Source: Bartonella schoenbuchensis R1
GTDB lineage: Bacteria; Pseudomonadota; Alphaproteobacteria; Rhizobiales; Rhizobiaceae
NCBI RefSeq assembly: GCF_002022685.1
Contig: NZ_CP019789.1
Coordinates: 1,314,501 to 1,378,500, forward strand
Direction of reading: 5' to 3'
Length of the DNA stretch: 64,000 nucleotides
Position 1 is the stretch's first letter. Every line of letters begins with the position of its first letter. The notes under the pieces are model-generated. The model worked only from the letters and a program-made list of their open reading frames with translations. It did not search any database and was not told the origin of the DNA. Of the stretch, positions 27,613-47,171 are shown one piece after another. A program made the translations under genes and the position numbers.

Positions 27613-28796
27613 CAGAGATTGTAGAACAATTACTCAATGGTGACTGTAAAGCGCGTACCCAAGGTTTGATTAAATCTTTAGCACAAGAGATCGGGTGTGA
27701 AGAAACTGTAGTTTCTGCCATTATTTCTGTTGAGTCAAATGGTAAAGGTTTTGATGATGAAGGGCGTGTAAAAGTACTTTTTGAAAAACATCAGTTTTAT
27801 AAGAATTTACCCCCTCATAAGCGTAAACAAGCTATTACAGAAGATCTTGCGAGACAGGAGTGGATCAGCCCTAAAGACGGGGGATATAAAGAACAAAAAA
27901 CCAACACTCAAGCTTTGAAGTTGCTCATTGCAGCTATGACCATTGATGAAGAAGCTGCCTTAAAATCTGCTTCTTATGGTGCTGGTCAAATTATGGGAAA
28001 TAACTATGGTATCCTTGGTTGGAATAGTGTCCAAGATTTTGTCACCAGCATGTGTTCGTGTGAAGACGAACAAATAAGAGCGATGTTTATTTTTTTCAAA
28101 AGACGTGGCCTTGCTTCAAGTTTACGAGACAAAGATTTTGATGCCATTGCACGCGTTTACAATGGCAGTGGTATGGTTAAAGAATATGGCCGACGCATGC
28201 GTAATGCTTATTGTGCCATCACAAAAAAATCAGCAGAGGTTAGTAATTCAGTTCGTGCCAATGGTTTACGACTAGGGTGTAAAGGCTACCGTGTTGAAGC
28301 GCTGCAAAAACGTCTCAATGATCTTGGTTATCCTGTTGCCATTGATAGTGATTATGGACCAGATACACGCAGTGCAATCTTTTCTTTTCAAGCTGATCAT
28401 AATTTAGAAGTTGATGGTGTTGTTGGTACCAAAACTCAAGAAGCGCTTGACGTGGCCACTCCAATGATTAGTCCCCGTCGCTCTGGTGTAAGTATAGCGG
28501 ATTTGAGAAAAAAGGGTACAAACATTATTAAAGATGCAGATAAAACCCAAACGGCGGGTTATGGTCTTGCTGCCACTTCAGCTCTCATGGGAGCAGAACA
28601 AATGGGGCTATTTGATAATCTTAAACTCTCTATAGGAAAAATGAGTGCTCTTGTAGAGCCACTTGTTCATATTGGTAAAGCAATCTCGGATCATTGGTGG
28701 ATGGCTGCTATTTTTGTAGGATTGATTATTGTTCTCGTCTCAGATCGTGTCAAAAGAACTTATCTAAAAGATTACAAGAAAGGCAGAGCTATCTAA
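27609..28796 (+). CDS. Endolysin: N-acetylmuramidase with PG-binding domain and C-terminal TM
   Basis: 395 residues. Residues 15-195 form an N-acetylmuramidase domain with the likely catalytic Glu in VVSAIISVESNGKGF and SYGAGQIMGNNYGILGW. Residues about 215-270 are a peptidoglycan-binding type 1 repeat (LRLGCKGYRVEALQKRLNDLGY, YGPDTRSAIFSFQ). The end has a membrane segment (WWMAAIFVGLIIVLVSD) followed by a basic tail. A C-terminal anchor is unusual for an endolysin. The ATG overlaps the D stop (ATGA). No separate holin is recognised next to it. Confidence 0.88.
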   Translation: MTEIVEQLLNGDCKARTQGLIKSLAQEIGCEETVVSAIISVESNGKGFDDEGRVKVLFEKHQFYKNLPPHKRKQAITEDLARQEWISPKDGGYKEQKTNTQALKLLIAAMTIDEEAALKSASYGAGQIMGNNYGILGWNSVQDFVTSMCSCEDEQIRAMFIFFKRRGLASSLRDKDFDAIARVYNGSGMVKEYGRRMRNAYCAITKKSAEVSNSVRANGLRLGCKGYRVEALQKRLNDLGYPVAIDSDYGPDTRSAIFSFQADHNLEVDGVVGTKTQEALDVATPMISPRRSGVSIADLRKKGTNIIKDADKTQTAGYGLAATSALMGAEQMGLFDNLKLSIGKMSALVEPLVHIGKAISDHWWMAAIFVGLIIVLVSDRVKRTYLKDYKKGRAI

Positions 28797-29898: not shown

Positions 29899-30161
29899 AG
29901 TAGAGTCACATAGTCAGATTACTATTCATAACACCAAAGTAAGTTTGTGAATATTCTGATTTAGTCGCTAATGTAATATTTTGTTATCAATGTGATGAAA
30001 AATGCAAATAGAGCTTCTAGTAATGTGTAGCGATATTTATATTTCTGTTACATAATCAAATTATGTATAATTTCATTTCTTTCTAAACACATGATTGTAA
30101 AAACGCTCGAGTAAAAAATATAACAAGAATTGTCCATCACAAAATTCTTGCATAATATTAA

Positions 30162-32104
30162 TCAATATACCCCCATACCCTTATTCTTTCCCGTAATCGT
30201 CACATCATTCAACTCAGCACTCGTCACCCCATTCCCCACATACACCCCATACTCACCCATAAAATTAATCGTCGAGTTCTCCCTAATCATCAGCCTCTCA
30301 CCCTTCTCCATACTCACCCCTTTTGTGACCTGCAAAATCTTCACATCATCTAACGTCATCGTCATATCTGTCCCCCCCCACCGCATAGACCCCGTATCCA
30401 CTTTCCTCTCCCGTAATCGTTGTCCCCGTCAAGCTAACATTCTTTATCCCTCCCTTCACATAAACGCCCCATCCACTCTCTTTAAAGTCAATGGTTGTTC
30501 CCTTTTCTATTATCAACGTCCCCCTCTCTGCATAGACCCCCGTCCCACTTCCCTTTCCCGTAATCACCGTCTGCGTCAACTCAGCACTCTTCACCTCTCC
30601 CCACACCCCAACCCCAACTCCATCCCCCACAAACTCAATCGTCGAACTCCCACTAATCGTCAAACTCTTACCTCCCTTCTCCATCATCACCCCCATTGCC
30701 ACTCCTTTTATCCTCACATTATCCAACTTCACATCACCCCCCATCATCATCACCCCCGTACCCTTTCCATCTCCCGTAATCTCCACACCCATCAAACTCG
30801 CACTCTTCACCTCACTCCCCACCATCACCCCCGTTCCCGTAAACCCTTTTACCGACCCCTGATTCATTATCAACACCCCCTTCTCCACCCTCACCCCCGT
30901 TGCGAACCTTGAAATATCCACCCCTCCACTCAACGTCACACCCCCCTCCATATACACCCCCGTACCCTTTCCATCTCCCGTAATCTCCCCCTCAGTCATC
31001 TTAAACGTCCCCCCCTTCACATACACCCCCGTTTCAAACCTTGAAACCTCCACCCCTCCACTCAACTCAACCGTCCCCGAAGTATCCACAATCACCCCAT
31101 AACTCCCTCCACTTCCCCCTCCCTGAATCGACCCCCCCATCATAGTAGCCTTCCCCGACCCCGTCACTCTAAGCCCCATCGTAGTTCCCACAATCGTCGC
31201 CCTCCCATTCACCTCTAACACCCCACTTCCCGACACCTCAGCCCCCACCGTAGTTCCCTGAATCGACCCCTTTGTCACCTCCAACGTCCCCTTTGTCACC
31301 CTCGCCCCCACTCCAACCCCCTCAATCGTCACCGTATTCAACATCAACGCCCCATCCCCCATCATCACCGCCCCCGTACTCCCACTTGCTAAATTAATCT
31401 TCGCCCCTACCCCCATCACAGTAGCATTAGCCGTCCCCTTATCTCCCATAAACACTATCCCCATACTTCCCTGAACCTTCACCTCTCCCCCCAACGTCAC
31501 AGTCCCCCATCCTTCACCCCTATCCCCCCTCCATTAACCTTCACCCCATCAATCAACGTCACAGTCCCCCATTCTTCACCCCAATCACATAATCTCCCCT
31601 AACCCCAATCACCCCTTTAGTCACCGTAACAGAAGATCCCTTACCATCAGCCACTATCCCCTTATACACATTTTGAATATCAACCTCTCCCGCCAATACC
31701 AGCTTCCCTTGCTTTTCCACCTGAATCGCCGGCATCTTACTACTCTTATCCGTGATCGTCAGCTTATCTACTATCGTAATATCTGCCTTCGACCCATGCA
31801 CCTTCACAGCAGGATTACTAGGCTCATCCTTCATATCTATAGTTCTCGGACCCCTCAGCGTCCCCCCATCACCCGTACCCCCATACCTCCCATCACACTC
31901 GATTTTCCCATTTGGATTATCACCACTCCTATCACCAGCCTCCCCAGTACCATAAGTATTAGTAAACCCATTACAATTCAGTGATTTGGCATACACTTTT
32001 GTTTGAGCCGTAATAAGAGCAAGACCCGCCAGAACAGCTGTCGAGAGAACACACAAACAAACATGATGTTTTAACACACAACGCATAACCATAAACCCAT
32101 ACAT
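30162..32104 (-). pseudogene. Beta-helix surface protein, copy A, truncated and frameshifted
   Basis: Begins with the shared signal peptide (MVMRCVLKHHVCLCVLSTAV, ... QTKVYA) and head region, then right-handed beta-helix repeats of the form VTLSGGVxISRFxTGVxVxxGxxxMxxGxxxxFxGxGVxVG. Reading is broken at C5 tracts (31566-31570, 31504-31508, near a small local duplication) and at a C8 tract (30372-30379) where seven would keep frame. It ends at a stop after GKNKGMGVY, far shorter than copies B and C. No autotransporter beta-barrel follows. The family resembles Bartonella autotransporter passengers. Confidence 0.75.
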
Positions 32105-32340
32105 CCTCTTTAAATCACCCTGATTAAAAGAGACAAAATCTTCTTAAAAAAAAAGAAAAAACAAAAATGAAAACACACATGAATGGCTTGATCCCCAAAT
32201 CAAACGCCCCCAGAAAGCCTTCTACAAAAAACATCAAAACAAAACAAAATGCTCTCTAAACACGATCCTAAACACAGACCCAAAATAAAAAATAAACCTA
32301 CAAAACATAAAAGGGAAAATAAACACACCTAAACCATAAC
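32105..32340 (-). repeat. Array leader repeat, copy 1
   Basis: About 235 bp, nearly identical to 38966-39200 and 45901-46136, and continuing into the first 135 bp of the gene. It holds the putative promoter region and an AAAGAGG ribosome site. Its upstream edge is exactly where the body of copy B is cut. Confidence 0.85.
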
Positions 32341-35300
32341 AACATCACACGGCCACCATTATTTACATAAACACCCCTTGCTTTATCCTGCCCATCGATT
32401 TTAATGCCTATTCCCTTAATATCCGCAGTGTTTAAAACCCTTTTACCCTCTTTGTCTACAACGCTATCTGCCTCGACCTTTAAGAAAGTAGCATCGGAAT
32501 TACTACCCCTATACTTCATAGACAAATTATTTAACAAAACACTCCCCTGCTTGAGCAAAACACCGTGCTCTCTTTTAAACTCTATCGATCCTCCCACCAT
32601 ACTGACATTCCCCTTTACGATAGTCATACCCTCTGCAACCTCTTTCAAAGTAGTATCAACCATCAACAGCTGTCCATACCCCATCTTTATCCCCGTACCT
32701 TTATGACCAGACCCTGTAATATGGACATCATTTAATACAGCATACCCCTGATCAAAATAAATACCGTAGTCTCCCTTAAAACTAATGGATCCCTTACCCA
32801 TCACCAGAAACCCATTCCCCATCACATAAGCCCCCGTTTTAACCCCCTCAATATTCACCCCCTTCATCATGACTTTTGCTGAGTGACTCACCTCCACCCC
32901 TGCCCCTGCCCCTACACCTTCAACTGTATCTTCAACTGTATTTGCAACTGTATCTTCAACTGCAACTGCAACTGTACCTTTATTCTCTTGTCTTGTAATT
33001 TTGAAACCACTTAAAAAAGCATTCCCCCCTGAAACACTGATACCATACCTTCCACTAAAGGTAACCGATCCTCCCACCATGTGGACAACCCCTTGTGAGA
33101 TAGTCATACCCTTTGCAACATCTCTCAAGATAGTATCCTTCAACCGCACTGCTCCTCGTGTCATATACAGCCCCGTACCCTTTCCTTTTCCATCTCCCTC
33201 AATCGTCACCTTTTCTAAGAGAACCTTCCCTCCCATCGCATAGACCCCGTACCCACTTCCACTCCCCATAATCTTCGCCCCCGTCAAACGAGCATTCACC
33301 CCTCCCACCATCACCCCATATCCATCCTTAAACTCAATCTTCGTCCCATCCTCCACTGCCAACGTCCCACTCCCTGTCATAGCTACCCCTGTTCGTACAT
33401 TTGAAATCTTTACTCCCCCACTCAACGTCACCGTCAGCTGACTTCCCTCAGCACTCACCCCCGTTTGTACCCCTGAAATATCCACCCCCTCCAACGTCAC
33501 TATCCCACCCCCCACTGCATAGACCCCCACACTCACCCCATTATTCCTACCCCTCTCACTTCCAGTTCCCACAATCCTTGTTTTTGTCAAATAAGTACTC
33601 ACCAATCCTTCAACCTTCACCCCATACTCACCCATAAAACTAATCTCTGTTGTCCCCCTAATCATCAGGCTCTTTCCTCCCCTCGCATAAACCCCTTTCC
33701 CAACCTTTGAAATCTCCACCTTCTCCAACGATATCGTCAACTCCCCATTCCCCGCCCCTCCCACCGCATACACCCCCGTGCCCATACCACTTTCCTCTCC
33801 CTTAATTGTCACATCATTCAAGTTAACACTCTTCACCAATTTCTCCACATAAACGCCCCATCCACTCTCTTTAAAGTCAATGGTTGTTCCCTTTTCTATT
33901 ATCAACGTCCCCTTTTCCGCATACACCCCCGTTTTAACCTTTGAAATCCCCACCTTATCCAACATCATCTTTCCCGAGCTCTCCATTATGACCCCCACTC
34001 CCTTATCCTGTCCCGTAATCGTTGTCCCCTTCAACTCAGCCGTCACCTCACCCCCCACCATCACCCCATATCCACCCATAAACTCAATCCTCGAGTTCTC
34101 CCTAATCATCAAACTTTTACCCCCCATCACCCTCACCCCCGTTTGTACCTCTTTTATCGACCCCCCAGTAATCGTCAGACTTTTACCCTCCAACATCATC
34201 ACCCCCATTTCAACCTTTGAAATCTCCACCTTATCCAACGTCATCGTCAAGTTCGTCCCCCCCATCCCATAGACCCCCATACCCTTTCCACTTCTCCCTC
34301 CTATAATCTTCACATCTTTCAACTCAGCCGTCACATCACCCCCCACCATCACCCCGTACCCACCCCCAATTGCTAAACTAATCCTCGTCACATTCTCCAT
34401 CGTCAAGTTCCCTTTCCCCAACATCATCACCCCTATTTCAACCGCCTCAATCTTCACATCCGTCAAACCAACCTTCACATTTTCCGTCCCCATCGCATAG
34501 ACCCCCGTACTCCCCTTTCCACTTCCCGTAATCGTCACATCATTCAACTCAGCCATCGCCGTATTCCCCAGATAGACCCCAACCCCATAATTTCCCGTAA
34601 AATCAACTGACCCTTTCTTCATCGTCAGCTTTTTACCCCCCCTCGCATACACCCCCATTGCCACCTGTGAAATATCCACCTTATCCAACGTCATCGTCAA
34701 GTTCGTCCCCCCCATCGCATGTATCCCCATACCCTTATTCTTTCCCGTAATCGTCACATCATTCAACTCAGCACTCGTCACCCCATTCCCCACATACACC
34801 CCATACTCACCCATAAAATTAATCGTTGAGTTCCTACTAATCATCAAACTTTTACCCCGCCCCATCACTACCCCCATTGCCACCTTTGAAATCCTCACAT
34901 CGTCCAACGTCATCTCCAATGTCCCACCCCCCATCGCATACACCCCCATACTCCCAACTCCCCCACCCGTAATCACCGTCTGCGTCAAACTAACACTCTT
35001 CACCTCTCCCCACACCCCAACCCCAACTCCATCCCCCACAAACTCAATCGTCGAACTCCCACTAATCGTCAAACTCTTACCTTCCTTCTCCATATAGACC
35101 CCCATTTCAACCCCTTTTATCTCCACCTTATCCAACGTCATCGTCAAGTTCGTCCCCCCCTTCGCATACACCCCCGTACCCTTCCCTTTTCCATTCCCCC
35201 TAATCACCGTCCGCGTCAAACTCGCACTCTTCACCCCACTTCCCACATACACCCCATAATCCCCCATAAACTCAATCTTCGTCCCATCCTTCACCGTCAA

Positions 35301-38300
35301 CCACCCACTTGACATAGCTATCCCCATTTGCACCTTTTTTATCTCCCCTCCACTGACCATCACATTCCCCCCCATCGCATGTATCCCCGTTCCCGTTCCT
35401 TTTCCATTCCCCTCAATCATCACCCTCACCAAATCAGCTTTTGTCACCTTGTCCCCCATATACACCCCATAATCCCCCATAAAACTAATCGTCGAGCTTC
35501 CACTAATCATCAGACTCTCCCCCTTCATCATAACTATGCCCGTTTGTACCTCTTTGATCGACCCCCCAGTAATCGTCAGACTTTTACCCCCCCATCACCC
35601 TCACTCCCGTTCCAACCCTTGAAATCGTCACCCCCTCCAACCTCATCGCCATCCCCGTCCCCCCCCTCGCATACACCCCCTGACCACTTCCCCTTCCTGT
35701 AATCCTCATCCCCTTCAAACTCGCATTTGTCACCAAACTCCCCATATACACCCCATAATCCCCCATAAAACTAATCGTCGAGCTTCCACTAATCATCAGA
35801 CTCTCCCCCTTCATCATAACTATGCCCGTTTGTACCTCTTTGATCGACCCCCCAGTAATCGTCAGACTTTTACCCCCCATCACCCTCACTCCCGTTCCAA
35901 CCCTTGAAATCGTCACCCCCTCCAACCTCATCGCCATCCCCGTCCCCCCCTCGCATACACCCCCTGACCACTTCCCCTTCCTGTAATCCTCATCCCCATC
36001 AAACTCGCATTTGTCACCAAACTCCCCACATAGACCCCATAGTTACCCCAACTTGCTAAACTAATCGTCGACCCTCCCTCCATCCTAAACACCCCCTTCT
36101 TCGCATACACCCCCACTCCAACCTTTGAAATCCTCACATCCGTCATCGTCATCGCCATCCCCGTCCCCCCCACCGCATATATCCCCGTTCCCGTTCCTTT
36201 TCCATTCCCCTCAATCATCACCCTCACCAAATCAGCTTTTGTCACCCCATTCCCCACATACACCCCATACTCACCCATAAAATTAATCGTCGAGTTCTCC
36301 CTAATCATCAGACTCTCCCCCTTCATCATAGCTACCCCCGTTTGTACCTCTTTTATCGACCCCCCAGTAATCGTCAGACTTTTACCCCCCATCACCCTCA
36401 CCCCCGTTTTAACCCTTGAAATATTCACCATATTCAACATCACATCACCCCCCATCATCATCACCCCAATCCCCTTATCTCCATCTCCCGTAATCTTCGC
36501 CCCCATCAAACTCGCACTCGTCACCCCATCCCCCACAATCACCCCCGTTCCCGTAAACTCTGTTACCGACCCCCCAGTCATCTTAAACACCCCCTTCCCC
36601 ATCATCACCCCCATTGCCACATTTGAAATCCTCACATCCGTCATCGTCATCGCCATCCCCGTCCCCCCCTTCGCATACACCCCCGTACCCTTCCCTTTTC
36701 CATTCCCCCTAATCACCGTCCCCGTCAAACTCGCACTCTTCACCCCACTTCCCATATACACCCCATAATCCCCCATAAACTCAATCTTCGTCCCATCCTT
36801 CACCGTCAACCACCCACTTGACATAGCTACCCCCGTTTGTACCTCTTTTATCGACCCCCCACTAATCATCAAACTTTTACCCCGCCCCATCACTACCCCC
36901 GTTTTAACCTTTGAAATCTCCACCTTATCCAACGTCATCTCCAATGTCCCACCCCCCATCGCATGTATCCCCGTACCCTTATTCTGTCCCGTAATCGTCA
37001 CCCTTGTCAAATCAGCTTTTGTCACCCCATCCCCCACCATCACCCCCGTTCCCGTAAAATCTGTTACAGACCCCTGATTCATTATCAACGTCCCCTTCTC
37101 CACCTCCACCCCCACTCCAACCTTTGAAATCGTCACCATATTCAACGTCACATTCCCTCCCCTCGCATAGACCCCCGTACTCCCACTTCCCCCTCCCGTA
37201 ATCGTTGTCCCCGTCAAACTCGCACTCGTCACCCCATCCCCCACCATCACCCCCGTTCCCGTAAAATCTGTTACAGACCCCTGATTCATTATCAACACCC
37301 CCTTTTCCACCTCCACCCCCATTTCAACCTGTGAAATATTCACCTTATCCAACCTCATCGCCATCCCCGTCCCCCCCTTCGCATACACCCCAATCCCCTT
37401 ATCTCCCCCTCCCGTAATCTCCACACCCATCAAACTCGCACTCTTCACCTCACTCCCCACCATCACCCCCGTTCCCGTAAACTCTGTTACAGACCCCCCA
37501 GCCATTGTCAAGCTCTTCGCCCTCTCCACCCTCACCCCCGTCTCAACCCCTTTTATCTCCACCCTCTCCAACGTCATCTCCAACGTCTCACCCCCCTCCA
37601 TATACACCCCCGTACCCTTCCCTTTTCCATTCCCCCTAATCACCGTCCCCATCAAACTCGCACTCTTCACCCCATCCCCCACCATCACCCCATATCCCGT
37701 AAACTCTGTTACCGACCCCTCAGTCATCTTAAACGTCCCCCCCTTCTCCACCCTCACCCCCGTTTTAACCTTTAAAATATTCACCATATTCAAAGTCACA
37801 TCATCCCCCACCGCATATATCCCCGTGCCCTGACTATTTCCCATTCCCGTAATCGACCCCCCAGTCATCTTAAACGTCCCCCCCTTCACATACACCCCCA
37901 TCTTAAACCTTGAAATCTCCACCTCACTCAACGTCACATTCCCCGAGCTCTCCACAATCACCCCATAACTCCCAGTCCCACCTCCCTGAATCGATCCCCC
38001 CACCATAGTAGCACTCCCCTTCCCCGTCACACTAAGCCCCACCGTAGTTCCCTGAATCGACCCCTTTATCACCTCCAACGTCCCCTTTGTCACCCTCGCC
38101 CCCATTTCAACCCTTGAAATATTCACCATATTCAACATCAACGCCCCATCCGTCACATCAGCCCCAATACTCCCCCTCCCTGAATCGTCATATTCATCAC
38201 AGTAGCATTAGCTCCCCCCGTCCCCTGCATTATCACTCCCGTACCCCCACTTGCTAAATTAATCTTCGCCCCTACCCCCATCACAGTAGCATTAGCCACC

Positions 38301-38965
38301 CCATTCCCCATAAACACTATCCCCATACTTCCCTGAACCGTCACCCCCCTCATCAACGTCACCTCTCCCCCATTCTTCACCCCAATCACATAATCTCCCC
38401 TAACCCCAATCACCCCTTTAGTCACAATAACAGAAGACTTTGAATCCTTAACCAATATCCCCTTATACACCCCTGTAGCATTGACATCATTCAACGTCAG
38501 CTTCCCCTGCCTTTCCACCTGAATCGCCGGATTAGTATTACGCTTACCATTATCCGTGATCGTCAGCTTACCTACTATCGTAATCACAGCCCTCCCCCCA
38601 TGCACCTTCACAGCAGGCTTAAGATCCTTACCCATATCTATATCTCGATTACCACTCAGCTCCCCATTACTACCACCTATACCACCCATCACCCTCTGAT
38701 ACTGCCCCCTCATACTCACCCTCCCATACCCCCCCTCATACACCCCATCCCCATCACACTCGATTTTCCCAGTTTCACTATCACCCCTAGGATCACCAGC
38801 CTCCCCACTAGCACTAGTATTAGTAAACCCATTACAATTCAGTGATTTGGCATACACTTTTGTTTGAGCTGTAATAAGAGCAAGACCCGCCAGAACAGCT
38901 GTCGAGAGAACACACAAACAAACATGATGTTTTAACACACAACGCATAACCATAAACCCATACAT
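32298..38965 (-). pseudogene. Beta-helix surface protein, copy B, frameshifted, no beta-barrel
   Basis: About 6.7 kb. Signal peptide and head as in A and C, then dozens of beta-helix repeats with recurrent phrases (LTMTLDKVEISKV, KSLTITGGSIKEVQTGV, ASLMGTTITG). Frame breaks: a 1-nt loss in a G-rich stretch near 38171-38180; C7 at 35944-35950 (eight expected); C7 at 35587-35593 (six expected). The C-terminal 400 residues are Lys/Asp-richer and less repetitive. The frame ends by running into leader copy 1 after VNNGGRVML, so the 3' part, where an autotransporter barrel would lie, is missing. Confidence 0.8.
35468..36030 (-). repeat. 286-bp internal tandem duplication
   Basis: The block starting near 35471 recurs near 35757 with almost no substitutions. 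The two units differ in homopolymer length: C7 versus C6 (35587-35593, 35873-35878) and C8 versus C7 (35659-35666, 35944-35950). Confidence 0.8.
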
Positions 38966-39200
38966 CCTCTTTAAATCACCCTGATTAAAAGAGACAAAAT
39001 CTTCTTAAAAAAAAAAGAAAAAACAAAAATGAAAACACACATGAATGGCTTGATCCCCAAATCAAACGCCCCCAGAAAGCCTTCTACAAAAAACATCAAA
39101 ACAAAACAAAATGTTCTCTAAACACGATCCTAAACACAGACCCAAAACAAAAAAATAAGCCTATAAAAAACATAGGGAAAATAAACACACCTGAACCATA
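38966..39200 (-). repeat. Array leader repeat, copy 2
   Basis: Second copy of the roughly 235-bp leader; differs from the others by few bases. The body of gene copy C is cut at its upstream edge. Confidence 0.85.
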
Positions 39201-39206
39201 ACAACA

Positions 39207-42200
39207 TCACACACCCCTTGCTTTATCCTGCCCGTCGATTTTAATGCCTATTCCCTTAATATCCGCAGTGTTTAAAACCCTTTTACCCTCTTTGTCTACA
39301 ACGCTATCTGCCTCGACCTTTAAGAAAGTAGCATCGGAATTACTACCCCTATACTTCATAGACAAATTATTTAACAAAACACTCCCCTGCTTGAGCAAAA
39401 CACCGTGCTCTCTTTTAAACTCTATCGATCCTCCCACCATACTGACATTCCCCTTTACGATAGTCATACCCTCTGCAACCTCTTTCAAAGTAGTATCAAC
39501 CATCAACAGCTGTCCATACCCCATCTTTATCCCCGTACCTTTATGACCAGACCCTGTAATATGGACATCATTTAATACAGCATACCCCTGATCAAAATAA
39601 ATACCGTAGTCTCCCTTAAAACTAATGGATCCCTTACCCATCACCAGAAACCCATTCCCCATCACATAAGCCCCCGTTTTAACCCCCTCAATATTCACCC
39701 CCTTCATCATGACTTTTGCTGAGTGACTCACCTCCACCCCTGCCCCTGCCCCTACACCTTCAACTGTATCTTCAACTGTATTTGCAACTGTATCTTCAAC
39801 TGCAACTGCAACTGTACCTTTATTCTCTTGTCTTGTAATTTTGAAACCACTTAAAAAAGCATTCCCCCCTGAAACACTGATACCATACCTTCCACTAAAG
39901 GTAACCGATCCTCCCACCATGTGGACAACCCCTTGTGAGATAGTCATACCCTTTGCAACATCTCTCAAGATAGTATCCTTCAACCGCACTGCTCCTCGTG
40001 TCATATACAGCCCCGTACCCTTTCCTTTTCCATCTCCCTCAATCGTCACCTTTTCTAAGAGAACCTTCCCTCCCATCGCATAGACCCCGTACCCACTTCC
40101 ACTCCCCATAATCTTCGCCCCCGTCAAACGAGCATTCACCCCTCCCACCATCACCCCATATCCATCCTTAAACTCAATCTTCGTCCCATCCTCCACTGCC
40201 AACGTCCCACTCCCTGTCATAGCTACCCCTGTTCGTACATTTGAAATCTTTACTCCCCCACTCAACGTCACCGTCAGCTGACTTCCCTCAGCACTCACCC
40301 CCGTTTGTACCCCTGAAATATCCACCCCCTCCAACGTCACTATCCCACCCCCCACTGCATAGACCCCCACACTCACCCCATTATTCCTACCCCTCTCACT
40401 TCCAGTTCCCACAATCCTTGTTTTTGTCAAATAAGTACTCACCAATCCTTCAACCTTCACCCCATACTCACCCATAAAACTAATCTCTGTTGTCCCCCTA
40501 ATCATCAGGCTCTTTCCTCCCCTCGCATAGACCCCTTTCCCAACCTTTGAAATCTTCACATCCGTCAAATCAACCTTCACATTTTCCTTCCCCCCGCATA
40601 CACCCCGTACCCATTATCCTCTCCCTTAATCGTCACATCATTCAAGTTAACACTCTTCACCAATTTCTCCACATAAACGCCCCATCCACTCTCTTTAAAG
40701 TCAATGGTTGTTCCCTTTTCTATTATCAACGTCCCCCTCTCCGCATAGACCCCCGTTTTAACCTTTGAGATCCCCACCCCCTCCAACGTCATCTTTCCCG
40801 AGCTCTCCATTATGACCCCCACTCCCTTATCCTGTCCCGTAATCGTTGTCCCCTTCAACTCAGCCGTCACCTCACCCCCCACCATCACCCCATATCCACC
40901 CATAAAATTAATCCTCGAGTTCTCCCTAATCATCAGACTCTCCCCCTTCATCATAGCTACCCCCGTTTGTACCTCTTTTATCGACCCCCCAGTAATCGTC
41001 AGACTTTTACCCTCCAACATCATCACCCCCATTTCAACCTTTGAAATCTCCACCTTATCCAACGTCATCGTCAAGTTCGTCCCCCCCATCCCATAGACCC
41101 CCATACCCTTTCCACTTCTCCCTCCTATAATCTTCACATCTTTCAACTCAGCCGTCACATCACCCCCCACCATCACCCCGTACCCACCCCCAATTGCTAA
41201 ACTAATCCTCGTCACATTCTCCATCGTCAAGTTCCCTTTCCCCAACATCATCACCCCTATTTCAACCGCCTCAATCTTCACATCCGTCAAACCAACCTTC
41301 ACATTTTCCGTCCCCATCGCATAGACCCCCGTACTCCCCTTTCCACTTCCCGTAATCGTCACATCATTCAACTCAGCCATCGCCGTATTCCCCAGATAGA
41401 CCCCAACCCCATAATTTCCCGTAAAATCAACTGACCCTTTCTTCATCGTCAGCTTTTTACCCCCCCTCGCATACACCCCCATTGCCACCTGTGAAATATC
41501 CACCTTATCCAACGTCATCGTCAAGTTCGTCCCTCCCACCGCATACACCCCCGTACCCTTTCCATCTCCCGTAATCGTTGTCCCCATCAAACTCGCACTC
41601 GTCACCCCATTCCCCATATACACCCCATAATCCCCCTTAAAATCAATCGTTGAGTTCCTACTAATCATCAAACTTTTACCCCGCCCCATCACTACCCCCA
41701 TTGCCACCTTTGAAATCCTCACATCGTCCAACGTCATCTCCAATGTCCCACCCCCCATCGCATACACCCCCATACTCCCAACTCCCCCACCCGTAATCAC
41801 CGTCTGCGTCAAACTAACACTCTTCACCTCTCCCCACACCCCAACCCCAACTCCATCCCCCACAAACTCAATCGTCGAGTTCCCCCTAATCGTCAAACTC
41901 TTACCTTCCTTCTCCATATAGACCCCCATTTCAACCCCTTTTATCTCCACCTTATCCAACGTCATCGTCAAGTTCGTCCCCCCCATCGCATGTATCCCCA
42001 TACCCTTATTCTTTCCCGTAATCGTCACATCATTCAACTCAGCACTCGTCACCCCATTCCCCATATACACCCCATAATCCCCCTTAAAATCAATCGTTGA
42101 GTTCCTACTAATCATCAAACTTTTACCCCGCCCCATCACTACCCCCATTGCCACCTTTGAAATCCTCACATCGTCCAACGTCATCTCCAATGTCCCACCC

Positions 42201-45200
42201 CCCATCGCATACACCCCCATACTCCCAACTCCCCCACCCGTAATCACCGTCTGCGTCAAACTAACACTCTTCACCTCTCCCCACACCCCAACCCCAACTC
42301 CATCCCCCACAAACTCAATCGTCGAGTTCCCCCTAATCGTCAAACTCTTACCTTCCTTCTCCATATAGACCCCCATTTCAACCCCTTTTATCTCCACCTT
42401 ATCCAACGTCATCGTCAAGTTCGTCCCCCCATCGCATGTATCCCCATACCCTTATTCTTTCCCGTAATCGTCACATCATTCAACTCAGCACTCGTCACCC
42501 CATTCCCCATATACACCCCATAATCCCCCATAAAACTAATCGTCGAACTCCCACTAATCGTCAAACTCTTACCTTCCTTCTCCATATAGACCCCCATTTC
42601 AACCCCTTTTATCTCCACCTTATCCAACGTCATCGTCAAGTTCGTCCCCCCCTTCGCATACACCCCCGTACCCTTCCCTTTTCCATTCCCCCTAATCACC
42701 GTCCCCGTCAAACTCGCACTCTTCACCCCACTTCCCATATACACCCCATAATCCCCCATAAACTCAATCTTCGTCCCATCCTTCACCGTCAACCACCCAC
42801 TTGACATAGCTATCCCCATTTGCACCTTTTTATCTCCCCTCCACTGACCATCACATTCCCCCCCACCGCATATATCCCCGTTCCCGTTCCTTTTCCATTC
42901 CCCTCAATCATCACCCTCACCAAATCAGCTTTTGTCACCCCATTCCCCACATACACCCCATACTCACCCATAAAATTAATCGTCGAGTTCTCCCTAATCA
43001 TCAGACTCTCCCCCTTCATCATAACTATGCCCGTTTGTACCTCTTTGATCGACCCCCCAGTAATCGTCAGACTTTTACCCCCCATCATTCTCACCCCCGT
43101 TCCAACCCCTGAAATCGTCACATTCTCCAACATCATCGTCAAGTTCGTCCCCCTCTCTGCATACACCCCCGTACCCTTTCCATCTCCCGTAATCGTTGTC
43201 CCCATCAAACTCGCACTCTTCACCTCACTCCCCACCATCACCCCCGTTCCCGTAAACTCTGTTACCGACCCCTCAAGAATCTTCAACATCCCCTTCTCCA
43301 CCCTCACCCCCGTTTTAACCTTTAAAATATTCACCATATTCAACATCACATCACCCCCCATCATCATCACCCCCGTACCCTTTCCATCTCCCATAATCTT
43401 CGCCCCCATCAAACTCGCACTCCTCACCCCACTCCCCACACTCACCCCCGTTCCCGCAAAATCTGTTACCGACCCCTGATTCATTATCAACGTCCCCTTC
43501 TCCACCTCCACCCCCATTGCCACCTTTGAAATCTCCACCTCACTCAACGTCACATTCCCTCCCACCGCATGTATCCCATACCCACTTCCCTTTCCCGTAA
43601 TCGTTGTCCCCATCAAACTCGCACTCTCCACCCCCTCCCCCACCATCACCCCATATTCCGTAAACCCTTTCACCGACCCCCCAGTAATCGTCAGACTTTT
43701 ACCCCCCATCACCCTCACCCCCGTTTGTACCTTTAAAATATTCACCATATTCAACGTCACATTCCCTCCCACCGCATAGACCCCCGTCCCACTTCCCTCT
43801 CCCGTAATCGTTGTCCCCGTCAAACTCGCACTCTCCACCCCCTCCCCCACCATCACCCCATATTCCGTAAACCCTTTCACCGACCCCTGATTCATTATCA
43901 ACGTCCCCTTCTCCACCTCCACCCCCGTTCCAACCCTTGAAATCGTCACCCCCTCCAACCTCATCACCATCCCTTCCGCCCCCCTCGCATACACCCCCGT
44001 CCCACTTCCCCCTCCCGTAATCATCACCCTTGTCAACTCAGCACTCTCCACCCCCTCCCCCACCATCACCCCCGTTCCCGTAAACCCTTTTACCGACCCC
44101 TGATTCATTATCAACACCCCCTTCTCCACCTCCACCCCCATTTCAACCTGTGAAATATTCACCATATTCAACGTCACATTCCCTCCCCTCGCATAGACCC
44201 CCGTACTCCCACTTCCCTTTCCCGTAATCGTTGTCCCCATCAAACTCGCACTCTCCACCCCATCCCCCACCATCACCCCCGTTCCCGTAAACCCTTTTAC
44301 CGACCCCTGATTCATTATCAACACCCCCTTCTCCACCCTCACCCCCACTCCAACCTTTGAAATCGTCACCATATTCAACGTCACCTTCCCTCCCCTCGCA
44401 TACACCCCATAGCTATCCCCACTATCCTTTCCCGTAATCGTCACATCCATCAAAGTAGCACTCTTCACCCCATCTCCCACCATCACCCCATAACTCGCAA
44501 AATCTGTTACCGACCCCCAGTCATCTTAAACGTCCCCTTTTCCGCATAGACTCCCGTTTTAACCCTTGAAATATCCACCCCTCCACTCAACGTCACATCA
44601 TCCCCCGCCGCATATATCCCCGTGCCCTGACTATTTCCCATTCCCGTAATCGACCCCCCAGTCATCTTAAACACCCCCCCTTCACATACACCCCCGTTTC
44701 AAACCTTGAAACCTCCACCCCTCCACTCAACTCAACCGTCCCCGAAGTATCCACTATCACCCCATAACTCCCAACACCCCCACTTCCCTGAATCGACCCC
44801 CCCACCATAGTAGCACTCCCCCCCGTCACCTTAAGCCCCGTACCATTACGCCCCGTAACCATAATCATCACATTCCCCATCACCGTCAACACCCCACTTC
44901 CCGACACATCAGCCCCCATCGTAGTTCCACTAATCATCGCCTCTCCCATCACTGTCAACGTCCCCTTTGTCACCCTCGCCCCCACTCCAACCCCCTCAAT
45001 CGTCACCATATTCAACATCAACGCCCCATCCGTCACATCAGCCCCAATACCCCCCCTTCCCTGAATCGTCATATTCATCACCTCTCCCCTCCCCTTCCCC
45101 TGCATTATCACTCCCGTACCCCCACTTGCTAAATTAATCTTCGCCCCTCCCCCCATCACAGTAGCATTAGCCTTTCCATTCCCCATAAACACTATCCCCG

Positions 45201-45900
45201 TCTTGACATTACTAAAACTCGTACCCACCAACGTTACAGTCCCCCCACCCTGACCCACCACTATCCCCCCTCCATTAACCGTCACCCCCCTCATCAACGT
45301 CACCTCTCCCCCATCCTTCACCCCAATCACATAATCTCCATCTCTCCTAACCCCTATCGATCCTTTAAGTACCGTAACAGAAGACTTTGAATCCTTAACC
45401 AATATCCCCTTATACACCCCTGTAGCATTGACATCATTCAACGTCAGCTTCCCTTGCTTTTCCACCTGAATCGCCGGACCAGTACTCTTACTACTCTTAT
45501 CCGTGATCGTCAGCTTACCTACTATCGTAATCTCAGCCCTCCCCCCATGCACCTTCACAGCAGGCTTAAGATCCGCACCCATATCTATAGTTCGATCACC
45601 ACTCAGCTCCCCACTACTACCACCTATACCACCCGTCACCCTCTCATACTTCCCCTTCCCATACTTCTTCTCATACCTCCCCTCCCCATCACACTCGATT
45701 TTCCCAGTTTTACTATCACCACTAGGATCATCAGGATCCCCACTAGCCCTATCATTAACAAACCCATTACAATTCAGTGATTTGGCATACACTTTTGTTT
45801 GAGCCGTAATAAGAGCAAGACCCGCCAGAACAGCTGTCGAGAGAACACACAAACAAACATGATGTTTTAACACACAACGCATAACCATAAACCCATACAT
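39207..45900 (-). pseudogene. Beta-helix surface protein, copy C, frameshifted, no beta-barrel
   Basis: About 6.7 kb, first gene of the array. Start at 45900, or 45888 (MVMRC), which has better spacing to AAAGAGG. Frame breaks: C7 at 44674-44680 (eight expected), C5 at 44514-44518 (six), T5 at 42827-42831 (six), C6 at 42425-42430 (seven), and C6 at 40590-40595. Its last 1.35 kb (39207-40552) is nearly identical to 32367-33712 of copy B. A 22-bp deletion relative to B, flanked by GTGT, creates the stop at 39207. Like B it lacks a barrel domain. Confidence 0.8.
41629..42520 (-). repeat. 447-bp internal tandem duplication in copy C
   Basis: The block beginning near 41629 is repeated near 42076, an offset of 447 bp (149 codons), nearly without change. 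It carries the MISRNSTIDFKGDYGVYMG to TLDKVEIKGVEMGVYMEKEG segment. Confidence 0.75.
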
Positions 45901-46136
45901 CCTCTTTAAATCACCCTGATTAAAAGAGACAAAATCTTCTTAAAAAAAAGAAAAAACAAAAATGAAAACACACATGAATGGCTTGATCCCCAAATCAAAC
46001 GCCCCCAGAAAGCCTTCTACAAAAAACATCAAAACAAAACAAAATGCTCTCTAAACACGATCCTAAACACAGACCCAAAATAAAAAAAATAAACCTACAA
46101 AACATAAAAGGGAAAATAAACACACCTAAACCATAA
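45901..46136 (-). repeat. Array leader repeat, copy 3
   Basis: Outermost leader copy. Homology to copies 1 and 2 ends at CCATAA (46131-46136). Unique sequence follows, which marks the edge of the duplicated unit. Confidence 0.85.
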
Positions 46137-47171
46137 ACGATAAATCAAACTTATAAACAAATAGGGTATGTGTTCAAAAACTAACTACCGCCAAATATTA
46201 CTAAGCTCACTAAACTCAATCATACACTGGAGAAAGCATAATTCAGTTACCTGCACGCATTTATAAAACCCCACAATGACTTGCATACTATCTTACCAAC
46301 ACCAACCATTCATTCTTCAAACGCTCTAAACAGATCTTCGACTGTGCTGAAATAATTCAACCATATACACACTATGCAAAAGCTTGATGTGTTGTTTCCT
46401 TCTCCCATGCTTCCTCTATAGATATAAACTATAAACTTCGTTGATCAGTGGATACTGCTGTAGGAACTAGCAAAAGCTTATCATAATCAAATCAGTAAGG
46501 AAGAGACTACATTCCACAATCCAAAACTGAACCTGAGAAACTTATGACTTATGGGGCCTTCCTTCATACCTATCTATCACTTAAATTAAGCAAAGTAATC
46601 CATAGGTAGAACGGTCAAGATTTAATTCCCCGCTTTTTCTCCCTCAATCAGACCATGTAGATACACTGTAAACAAATAAATAAGTCATCGATAATGGTTT
46701 TCGAGAATAATACCGGTAGATCACAAAAACAACTTGTTGAGTCTCATAGTTATTTTAGCTTATTCGACAGCATCAAGATAGATATTAAGCATTTTGGCTA
46801 AAAACTCTATAGACCCTATAAATTGTTATAGAAAAATAGATAAAAACGGTACGTCAGCATTTGAATAGAAGATTGATACAGTAGAGATTATACTTTACGT
46901 ATGTTTAGCTATAAGCTAAAATAAATTTCCTCTTATAACAACAATCCAAAAAGCCCTTCTCAAAATTGAAGAAATAATTGCCAAATTTCTTCTTGAAAAA
47001 ATCTATTTGCTTTAAGTATTTTTAAAATTGTAGAATTTCCTTGCAAACCCATTGATCACAAAAATAAGCGGATATGTTCAAATATAAAGGGTAAATTTCA
47101 TTAAAAACAAATAATCAAAGATTGATGAAAATTTCCCAATACATTGTTGCTAAAACATGATGTTTAAATTT
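46137..47171. other. Gene-free interval between the array and fliQ
   Basis: About 1.03 kb, AT-rich, stops in all frames. No RNA gene, terminator or flagellar remnant recognised by eye. This is where flhA would be expected in a rhizobial-type flagellar operon. Confidence 0.6.

Follow-up and report, generated by a model that had tools for sequence, protein, structure and literature searches.

A tandem array of barrel-less beta-helix genes in Bartonella schoenbuchensis and a barrel-bearing relative with a mosaic passenger

The window analysed here comprises 64,000 nucleotides of Bartonella schoenbuchensis R1 (G000:C1:1314501-1378500), whose 1.73 Mb genome consists of two contigs, the smaller of which matched Bartonella plasmid records only (9/9 records). 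It contains a tandem array of beta-helix genes with phage structural genes to the left (terminase, portal, head, sheath, and tape measure) and FlgD, FlgK, FlgE, and MotC to the right. By comparison with the available text of Guy et al. 2013 (PMC3610622) the phage-like cluster was taken as the Bartonella gene transfer agent, and the flanking barrels are presumably iba. Window positions 28000-28482 were 95% identical to a stretch at about 967.5-968.0 kb of the same contig. This stretch duplicates the end of the phage-like cluster and is separated by a few kb from a further beta-helix gene (P0073, 1,341 aa).

All features of the array are on the minus strand. The first copy in the direction of transcription, copy C (39202..46160), consists of a leader and a barrel-less beta-helix passenger and was delimited by leader match, homology, and open or local reading frames. 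Copy B (32340..39201) has the same composition and was identified by leader match, homology, and the Pfam Beta_helix model PF13229, while copy A (30132..32339; leader match, local frames, and PF13229) consists of a leader and a short truncated passenger, together about 2.2 kb of family sequence. Leader matches and alignment placed the leaders, which include 5' noncoding DNA, the start region, and the signal peptide, at 45700..46160 (copy C), 38765..39201 (copy B), and 31904..32339 (copy A). The array head upstream of copy C (46137..46882) was recognized by its sequence identity to the regions upstream of copies E and G elsewhere in the genome. The first open frame of copy C (44662..45900, 412 aa) covers the signal peptide and the start of the passenger, and a scan of genome contigs with this 412-aa ORF found no relative. 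The longest open frame of copy B (32298..35531, 1,077 aa) is a beta-helix ORF with a PF13229 match at E 2e-44; the same model matched a second ORF of copy B (35928-38156, E 5e-26) and one of copy A (30346-31500, E 4e-8). GC skew across the array (window 30132-46160) was near -0.7 on the plus strand.

The first-pass annotation had described three copies about 6.9 kb apart with the same leader and signal peptide, diverged mosaic middles, nearly identical 3' blocks in copies B and C, and no beta-barrel, and this description held up. The three leaders were 95-100% identical to the query leader, the 3' sides of copies B and C shared 96.2% identity over 2,920 nt, the mosaic middles were borne out by the window scan reported below, and among the six autotransporter barrels detected genome-wide none was located at 1344-1361 kb, where the array lies.

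Eight leaders were found in the genome in total, namely those of copies A, B, and C in the window, of copy D at 1283 kb, and of copies E to H at 231-246 kb; all eight copies carry the leader with the signal peptide, and their matches to the query leader extend for up to 461 nt with 95-100% identity. The leaders of relatives were only about 68-85% identical to the query leader from the window, and the 17 leaders within B. bovis were 96-100% identical to their own query. Since the leaders are near-identical within a genome and diverged between relatives, they point to concerted evolution. The array head was 98.0% identical to the region upstream of copy E (at about 230 kb) over 751 alignment columns, and its first 343 nt were 100% identical upstream of copy G.

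Rfam returned no match at E-values up to 1 for a known RNA in the leader region (window 45800-46600), and a scan for sigma-70 promoters gave one site, on the other strand, where 1.7 were expected. Folding of the leader in four species gave a hairpin over the AAAGAGG preceding the start codon (window 45900-45960) with z-scores of -1.91 for the window leader and -1.98 for B. bovis, the B. melophagi and WD12.1 foldings being unconvincing (remaining z-scores of -0.36 and 0.09); on this evidence the predicted hairpin is not conserved. Upstream of the start (window 45950-46010) a T run of 8-10 differs in length among the eight leaders in a stretch that is otherwise nearly invariant, a difference which may reflect slippage or sequencing error.

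The genes of the array belong to pbhR, a family found in ruminant Bartonella. According to the available text of Guy et al. 2013 (PMC3610622), pbhR is a massively duplicated beta-helix family of the ruminant (group A) Bartonella, which occurs as tandem duplicates of variable size at two major sites, one of them adjoining the fla-iba-fla cluster. The autotransporter domain was there supposed to have been lost, as a hypothesis and not as a definition of the family, and the means of long blood infection and of cell binding in ruminant Bartonella were stated to be unknown. Among the open-access literature searched pbhR of Bartonella was named in this paper only, judging by titles. Right-handed beta-helix repeats were present in the window, with PF13229 above its cut-off in 3/4 window ORFs, and leader DNA was matched at length in 4/71 Bartonella genomes (the window's genome, B. 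bovis 91-4, Bartonella sp. WD12.1, and B. melophagi), four further genomes giving matches of 27-34 nt only. The copies lie at two major sites, 231-246 kb and 1274-1361 kb, with the array beside the flagellar genes. Loss of the autotransporter domain applied to the array copies and did not apply to copy D.

Copy D (G000:C1:1274477-1283712, minus strand, outside the window) lies about 61 kb from the array and is the sole barrel-bearing member of the eight copies; the other seven, including the three in the window, consist of leader and passenger. It comprises a leader that is 97% identical to that of copy C, a beta-helix passenger, an autochaperone (PF18883), and a beta-barrel (TIGR01414, E 3e-27, above the cut-off; also PF03797). 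In the window's assembly the gene is broken by three frame switches, and its open frames end in one of 1,277 aa that contains the autochaperone and the barrel. The WD12.1 counterpart is a single uninterrupted frame of 2,466 codons that includes both leader and barrel, that of B. bovis 91-4 consists of two overlapping frames, and that of B. melophagi contains runs of N. Each of three scanned genomes had one gene with both the family leader and a barrel. The barrel has thus not been lost from the pbhR family. Among named relatives with a barrel the nearest is B. schoenbuchensis m07a, whose barrel-side part was 89% identical to copy D over 1,261 aa. For the 16 passenger windows preceding this part of m07a, copy D was the best match among the window genome's own copies in only three, at 48-72% identity; on these comparisons the passenger appears to turn over between strains.

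When the barrel-bearing gene of WD12.1 was used as query in a protein search, 38 proteins were retrieved. Three of these combined the leader with the end of the barrel, i.e., P0002 (WD12.1, 2,464 aa), P0003 (WD16.2, 3,448 aa), and P0009 (B. bovis m02, 2,176 aa). The barrel was found by NCBIfam in P0002 and by Pfam in P0009; NCBIfam reported no barrel in P0003, yet the last 390 residues of this protein were 78-92% identical to copy D, window by window. The Pfam scan missed the barrels of P0001 and P0002, which were found by the genome search with the same family and by NCBIfam. Another 20 of the 38 proteins had the family leader at their start and lacked the last residues of the barrel (1,513-2,523 aa; absence of the barrel was checked with Pfam on P0012 and P0020 and with NCBIfam on P0012). 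Twelve of them came from three B. schoenbuchensis strains, five from WD16.2, two from WD12.1, and one from B. bovis. The three B. schoenbuchensis strains with these intact barrel-less proteins appear to be L2, L19, and L24, for which long-read assembly with short-read polishing was reported (PMC11320913). One record labelled Helicobacter pylori (P0060) has a B. melophagi-like leader and matches the pbhR family; it is probably mislabelled or contaminated.

The first-pass annotation had proposed a genome search for an intact full-length relative with a barrel and with patches matching the array; copy D has the barrel and such patches, its frame being broken in this assembly. When 200-nt windows of copy D were compared with the other seven copies, median identity over the first 6.3 kb was 0.99, with 46/62 windows at 0.95 or above and 38/62 at 0.98 or above (this limit and that of 4.6 kb were chosen after seeing the scan). 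The same part of copy D had a median identity of 0.63 to sequence elsewhere in D and of 0.67 to the WD12.1 copies, and its 3' part had 0/29 windows at 0.95 against the other copies. The best donor switches among A, B, C, E, and G along the gene, and the longest exact blocks shared with D measured 839 nt (E), 779 nt (B), 357 nt (C), 324 nt (A), and 269 nt (G). The barrel-bearing gene of WD12.1 gave a similar result (24/45 windows at 0.95, 16 at 0.98, and 0/29 in the 3' part), as did that of B. bovis (29/60 at 0.95, 25 at 0.98, and 0/22 in the 3' part). In B. bovis 2/60 windows had a further match at 0.98 in another place of the gene itself. At the limit of exchange the G skew drops from 0.70, 0.68, and 0.61 to 0.16, 0.15, and 0.16 in the three species. 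The variable region of one complete locus is thus a mosaic of incomplete copies, and the exact shared blocks indicate that sequence exchange between the copies has occurred, a conclusion which these alignments support well. On its coding strand the exchanged part of copy D contains 43% G and 8% C, and the strand bias is also seen in WD12.1 and B. bovis.

The first-pass annotation further reported several 1-nt frame breaks per copy, mostly in G/C tracts. To assign local reading frames, the copies were compared with 35 homologues (P0002-P0036), four of which lack the leader or belong to other autotransporters. Over the roughly 35.5 kb of the eight copies 21 frame switches were counted, 18 of the type left by loss of a single base and three of the gain type. 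The breaks are present in the sequence (two in copy A, three in B, five in C, and three in D). As a control, the same type of break was looked for in two 140-kb stretches of the window's assembly (G000:C1:560001-700000 and 300001-440000; 186 kb aligned), using 179 B. bovis ORFs that have counterparts there. Sixteen frame switches were found in 13/179 conserved genes, 16/16 of the loss type, of which 7/16 were within 30 nt of a G/C run of at least five and most others near A/T runs of 5-7. Among the broken genes was rpsB, which is in two pieces and has no other copy in the genome, and three others we take to be clpA, the pyruvate dehydrogenase E2 gene, and gltX. The reverse control, with window-genome ORFs against B. 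bovis, gave six switches (five gain and one loss), three of them in one ORF at 60% identity.

Because conserved genes of the same assembly break alike, the breaks in the family cannot be taken as biology. The reported tie to G/C tracts also carries little information, since with 519 G runs of at least five in the eight copies almost any break falls near one. The control rate of 7 breaks per 90 G/C runs of at least five would predict about 40 breaks for the 519 family runs, by a rough sum with runs counted as called, and 21 were seen. On this sequence evidence most breaks of the array are probably assembly errors due to homopolymer under-calling, and a few may be real; the window's genome should be polished before its frame breaks are read as phase variation.

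The copies could alternatively be phase-variable contingency loci that are switched on and off by G-tract slippage, as the first-pass annotation had also suggested. Such loci have been published for other Bartonella (badE and others; PMC11466379, available text), and G runs of at least five exceeded synonymous shuffles by 5-22% in all seven G-rich own ORFs tested, in addition to being numerous. Runs of at least six, however, were not in consistent excess (9, 7, 9, 16, 12, 12, and 11 observed against 7.8, 8.6, 11.5, 14.8, 14.7, 16.1, and 13.0 in the shuffles), as expected if long G runs arise because glycine is written as GGG. The longest G run in the eight copies was 8, below the in-frame homopolymer of 9 or more used in PMC11466379, and the breaks in the window's assembly match its error mode. 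The WD12.1 family (13 copies, 6/13 without any switch) had 13 switches in 51.6 kb, seven losses and six gains, which per kb is far above its control (about 106 kb, with one switch against B. bovis ORFs and three against window-genome ORFs). Three of these gains, in three adjacent copies, are at equivalent positions and could go back to a single event, and 13 breaks per 689 family G runs against 0 per 52 control G/C runs of at least five is no clear excess. It is possible, from WD12.1, that a modest share of the breaks is real. As a reading of the array's breaks, slippage was rejected on account of the 179-gene control and the shuffle test, and we regard on/off switching of the copies as very unlikely. 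One WD12.1 copy (G070:C2:105495) has a G run of 15 near a frame switch, the family's strongest candidate for a genuine contingency tract.

Plain decay of a duplicated array, in which the breaks are real and the copies dead, was the main alternative named in the first-pass annotation. It would account for the 21 frame switches, for the shortness of copies A, F, and H, and for the one clear internal stop in copy H. In-frame stops were nevertheless absent from copies B, D, E, and G; copies A, C, and F have four, one, and two, respectively, all of them next to a frame switch or close to where the assigned region ends. Three paralogue pairs (a fourth gave no data) differ by 203 substitutions, none of which created a stop where 5.3 were expected (P 0.005), uninterrupted copies exist in other strains, and the same type of break occurs in the 13/179 conserved genes, including the only rpsB. 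Decay is thus disfavoured by the few in-frame stops, the intact relatives, and the depletion of stop-creating changes, and we consider it very unlikely. Paralogue dN/dS was 0.65-1.32 in 6/7 pairs and 4.81 in a short seventh pair; these counts are crude and do not demonstrate positive selection. Together the substitution counts suggest that the reading frame is maintained and the residues can vary freely. The arrays of B. bovis and B. melophagi contain runs of N, and their frame breaks were left out of the counts.

We favour the interpretation, with a probability of roughly 0.6, that copy D is a single locus capable of export and that barrel-less cassettes are used to rebuild its passenger time and again, so that the cell surface changes. 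Passenger segments would move between copies by homologous recombination (as gene conversion or as unequal crossing-over), for which the 5' leader and the 3' passenger block, both shared and flanking the variable passenger in every long copy, would serve as guides. Recombination of a barrel-less copy with copy D would then replace the passenger and keep export. We infer that exchange runs mainly from the cassettes into the barrel-bearing locus, and that it may take place during infection with immune escape as its benefit, i.e., as antigenic variation. Barrel-less products, if made, may be periplasmic, or the copies may serve as donors only. The first-pass view of the array as a store from which expressed surface proteins are assembled gains support from the barrel-bearing member with the same leader and a mosaic passenger in three species, and antigenic variation itself is a reading of this pattern. 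Its qualifier "silent" fits poorly, as no copy lacks a leader and signal peptide and such copies are uninterrupted in other strains. That the barrel-less copies have a leader and signal peptide, unlike classical silent cassettes, is also a point against the cassette interpretation.

Mosaic sharing also arises from birth-and-death duplication without a role in immune escape. The locus could accordingly be an ordinary multigene family under birth-and-death and concerted evolution, homogenized by unequal crossing-over and with no dedicated role in surface variation, the barrel-less copies being by-products or secreted proteins in their own right. The tandem layout, the homogenization of leaders and 3' blocks within a genome, dN/dS values near 1, and the presence in other strains of barrel-less copies without interruption (1,513-2,523 aa) are all consistent with such a family. 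It does not readily explain that in three species exchange spares the export part and the passengers turn over, nor that each of the three scanned genomes has one gene with leader and barrel, and we hold it to be a serious but rather unlikely alternative. An extension of the cassette interpretation would be antigenic variation of a new layout, in which leader-bearing donors feed one barrel autotransporter and the extremely G-rich strand of the exchanged part is the recombination substrate. Because the array adjoins the phage-like cluster taken as a gene transfer agent, cassettes might in addition be packaged and shared between cells, and the donor library would then belong to the population; we consider this extended version unlikely. 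Under the favoured cassette interpretation, a single barrel-bearing gene with a rewritable passenger provides one locus to watch and makes antigenic variation in this clade directly testable.

Antigenic variation by gene conversion is known from Neisseria pilE/pilS and Borrelia vlsE. The present system resembles these in having one complete locus with constant ends, the variable part of which is a mosaic of incomplete copies. It differs in that the incomplete copies keep a leader and signal peptide (all eight copies have both, whereas silent donors have no promoter or 5' end), are in part located 1 Mb away, and run to thousands of codons, and in that the pattern is one seen by genome comparison. 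With type Va autotransporters copy D shares the signal peptide, beta-helix, PF18883 autochaperone, and TIGR01414/PF03797 barrel, the C-terminal beta-barrel that the window copies lack; 7/8 copies here, unlike type Va autotransporters, have no barrel next to the passenger. The SSR contingency loci described in the available text of PMC11466379 are likewise Bartonella surface genes with homopolymer runs, but the runs here do not exceed 8 and are explained by codon usage, and the breaks match assembly error. The closest match is pbhR as described in the available text of PMC3610622, with which the array shares the clade, the beta-helix repeats, the tandem copies of variable size, and the two sites, one of them by the flagellar cluster. 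That paper supposes the barrel to be lost, whereas a single member in each genome scanned here has retained it, with a passenger that is a mosaic of the barrel-less members, a combination not described in the open-access literature searched, including the available text of PMC3610622. Copy D hereby corrects the view that the pbhR family has lost its export domain.
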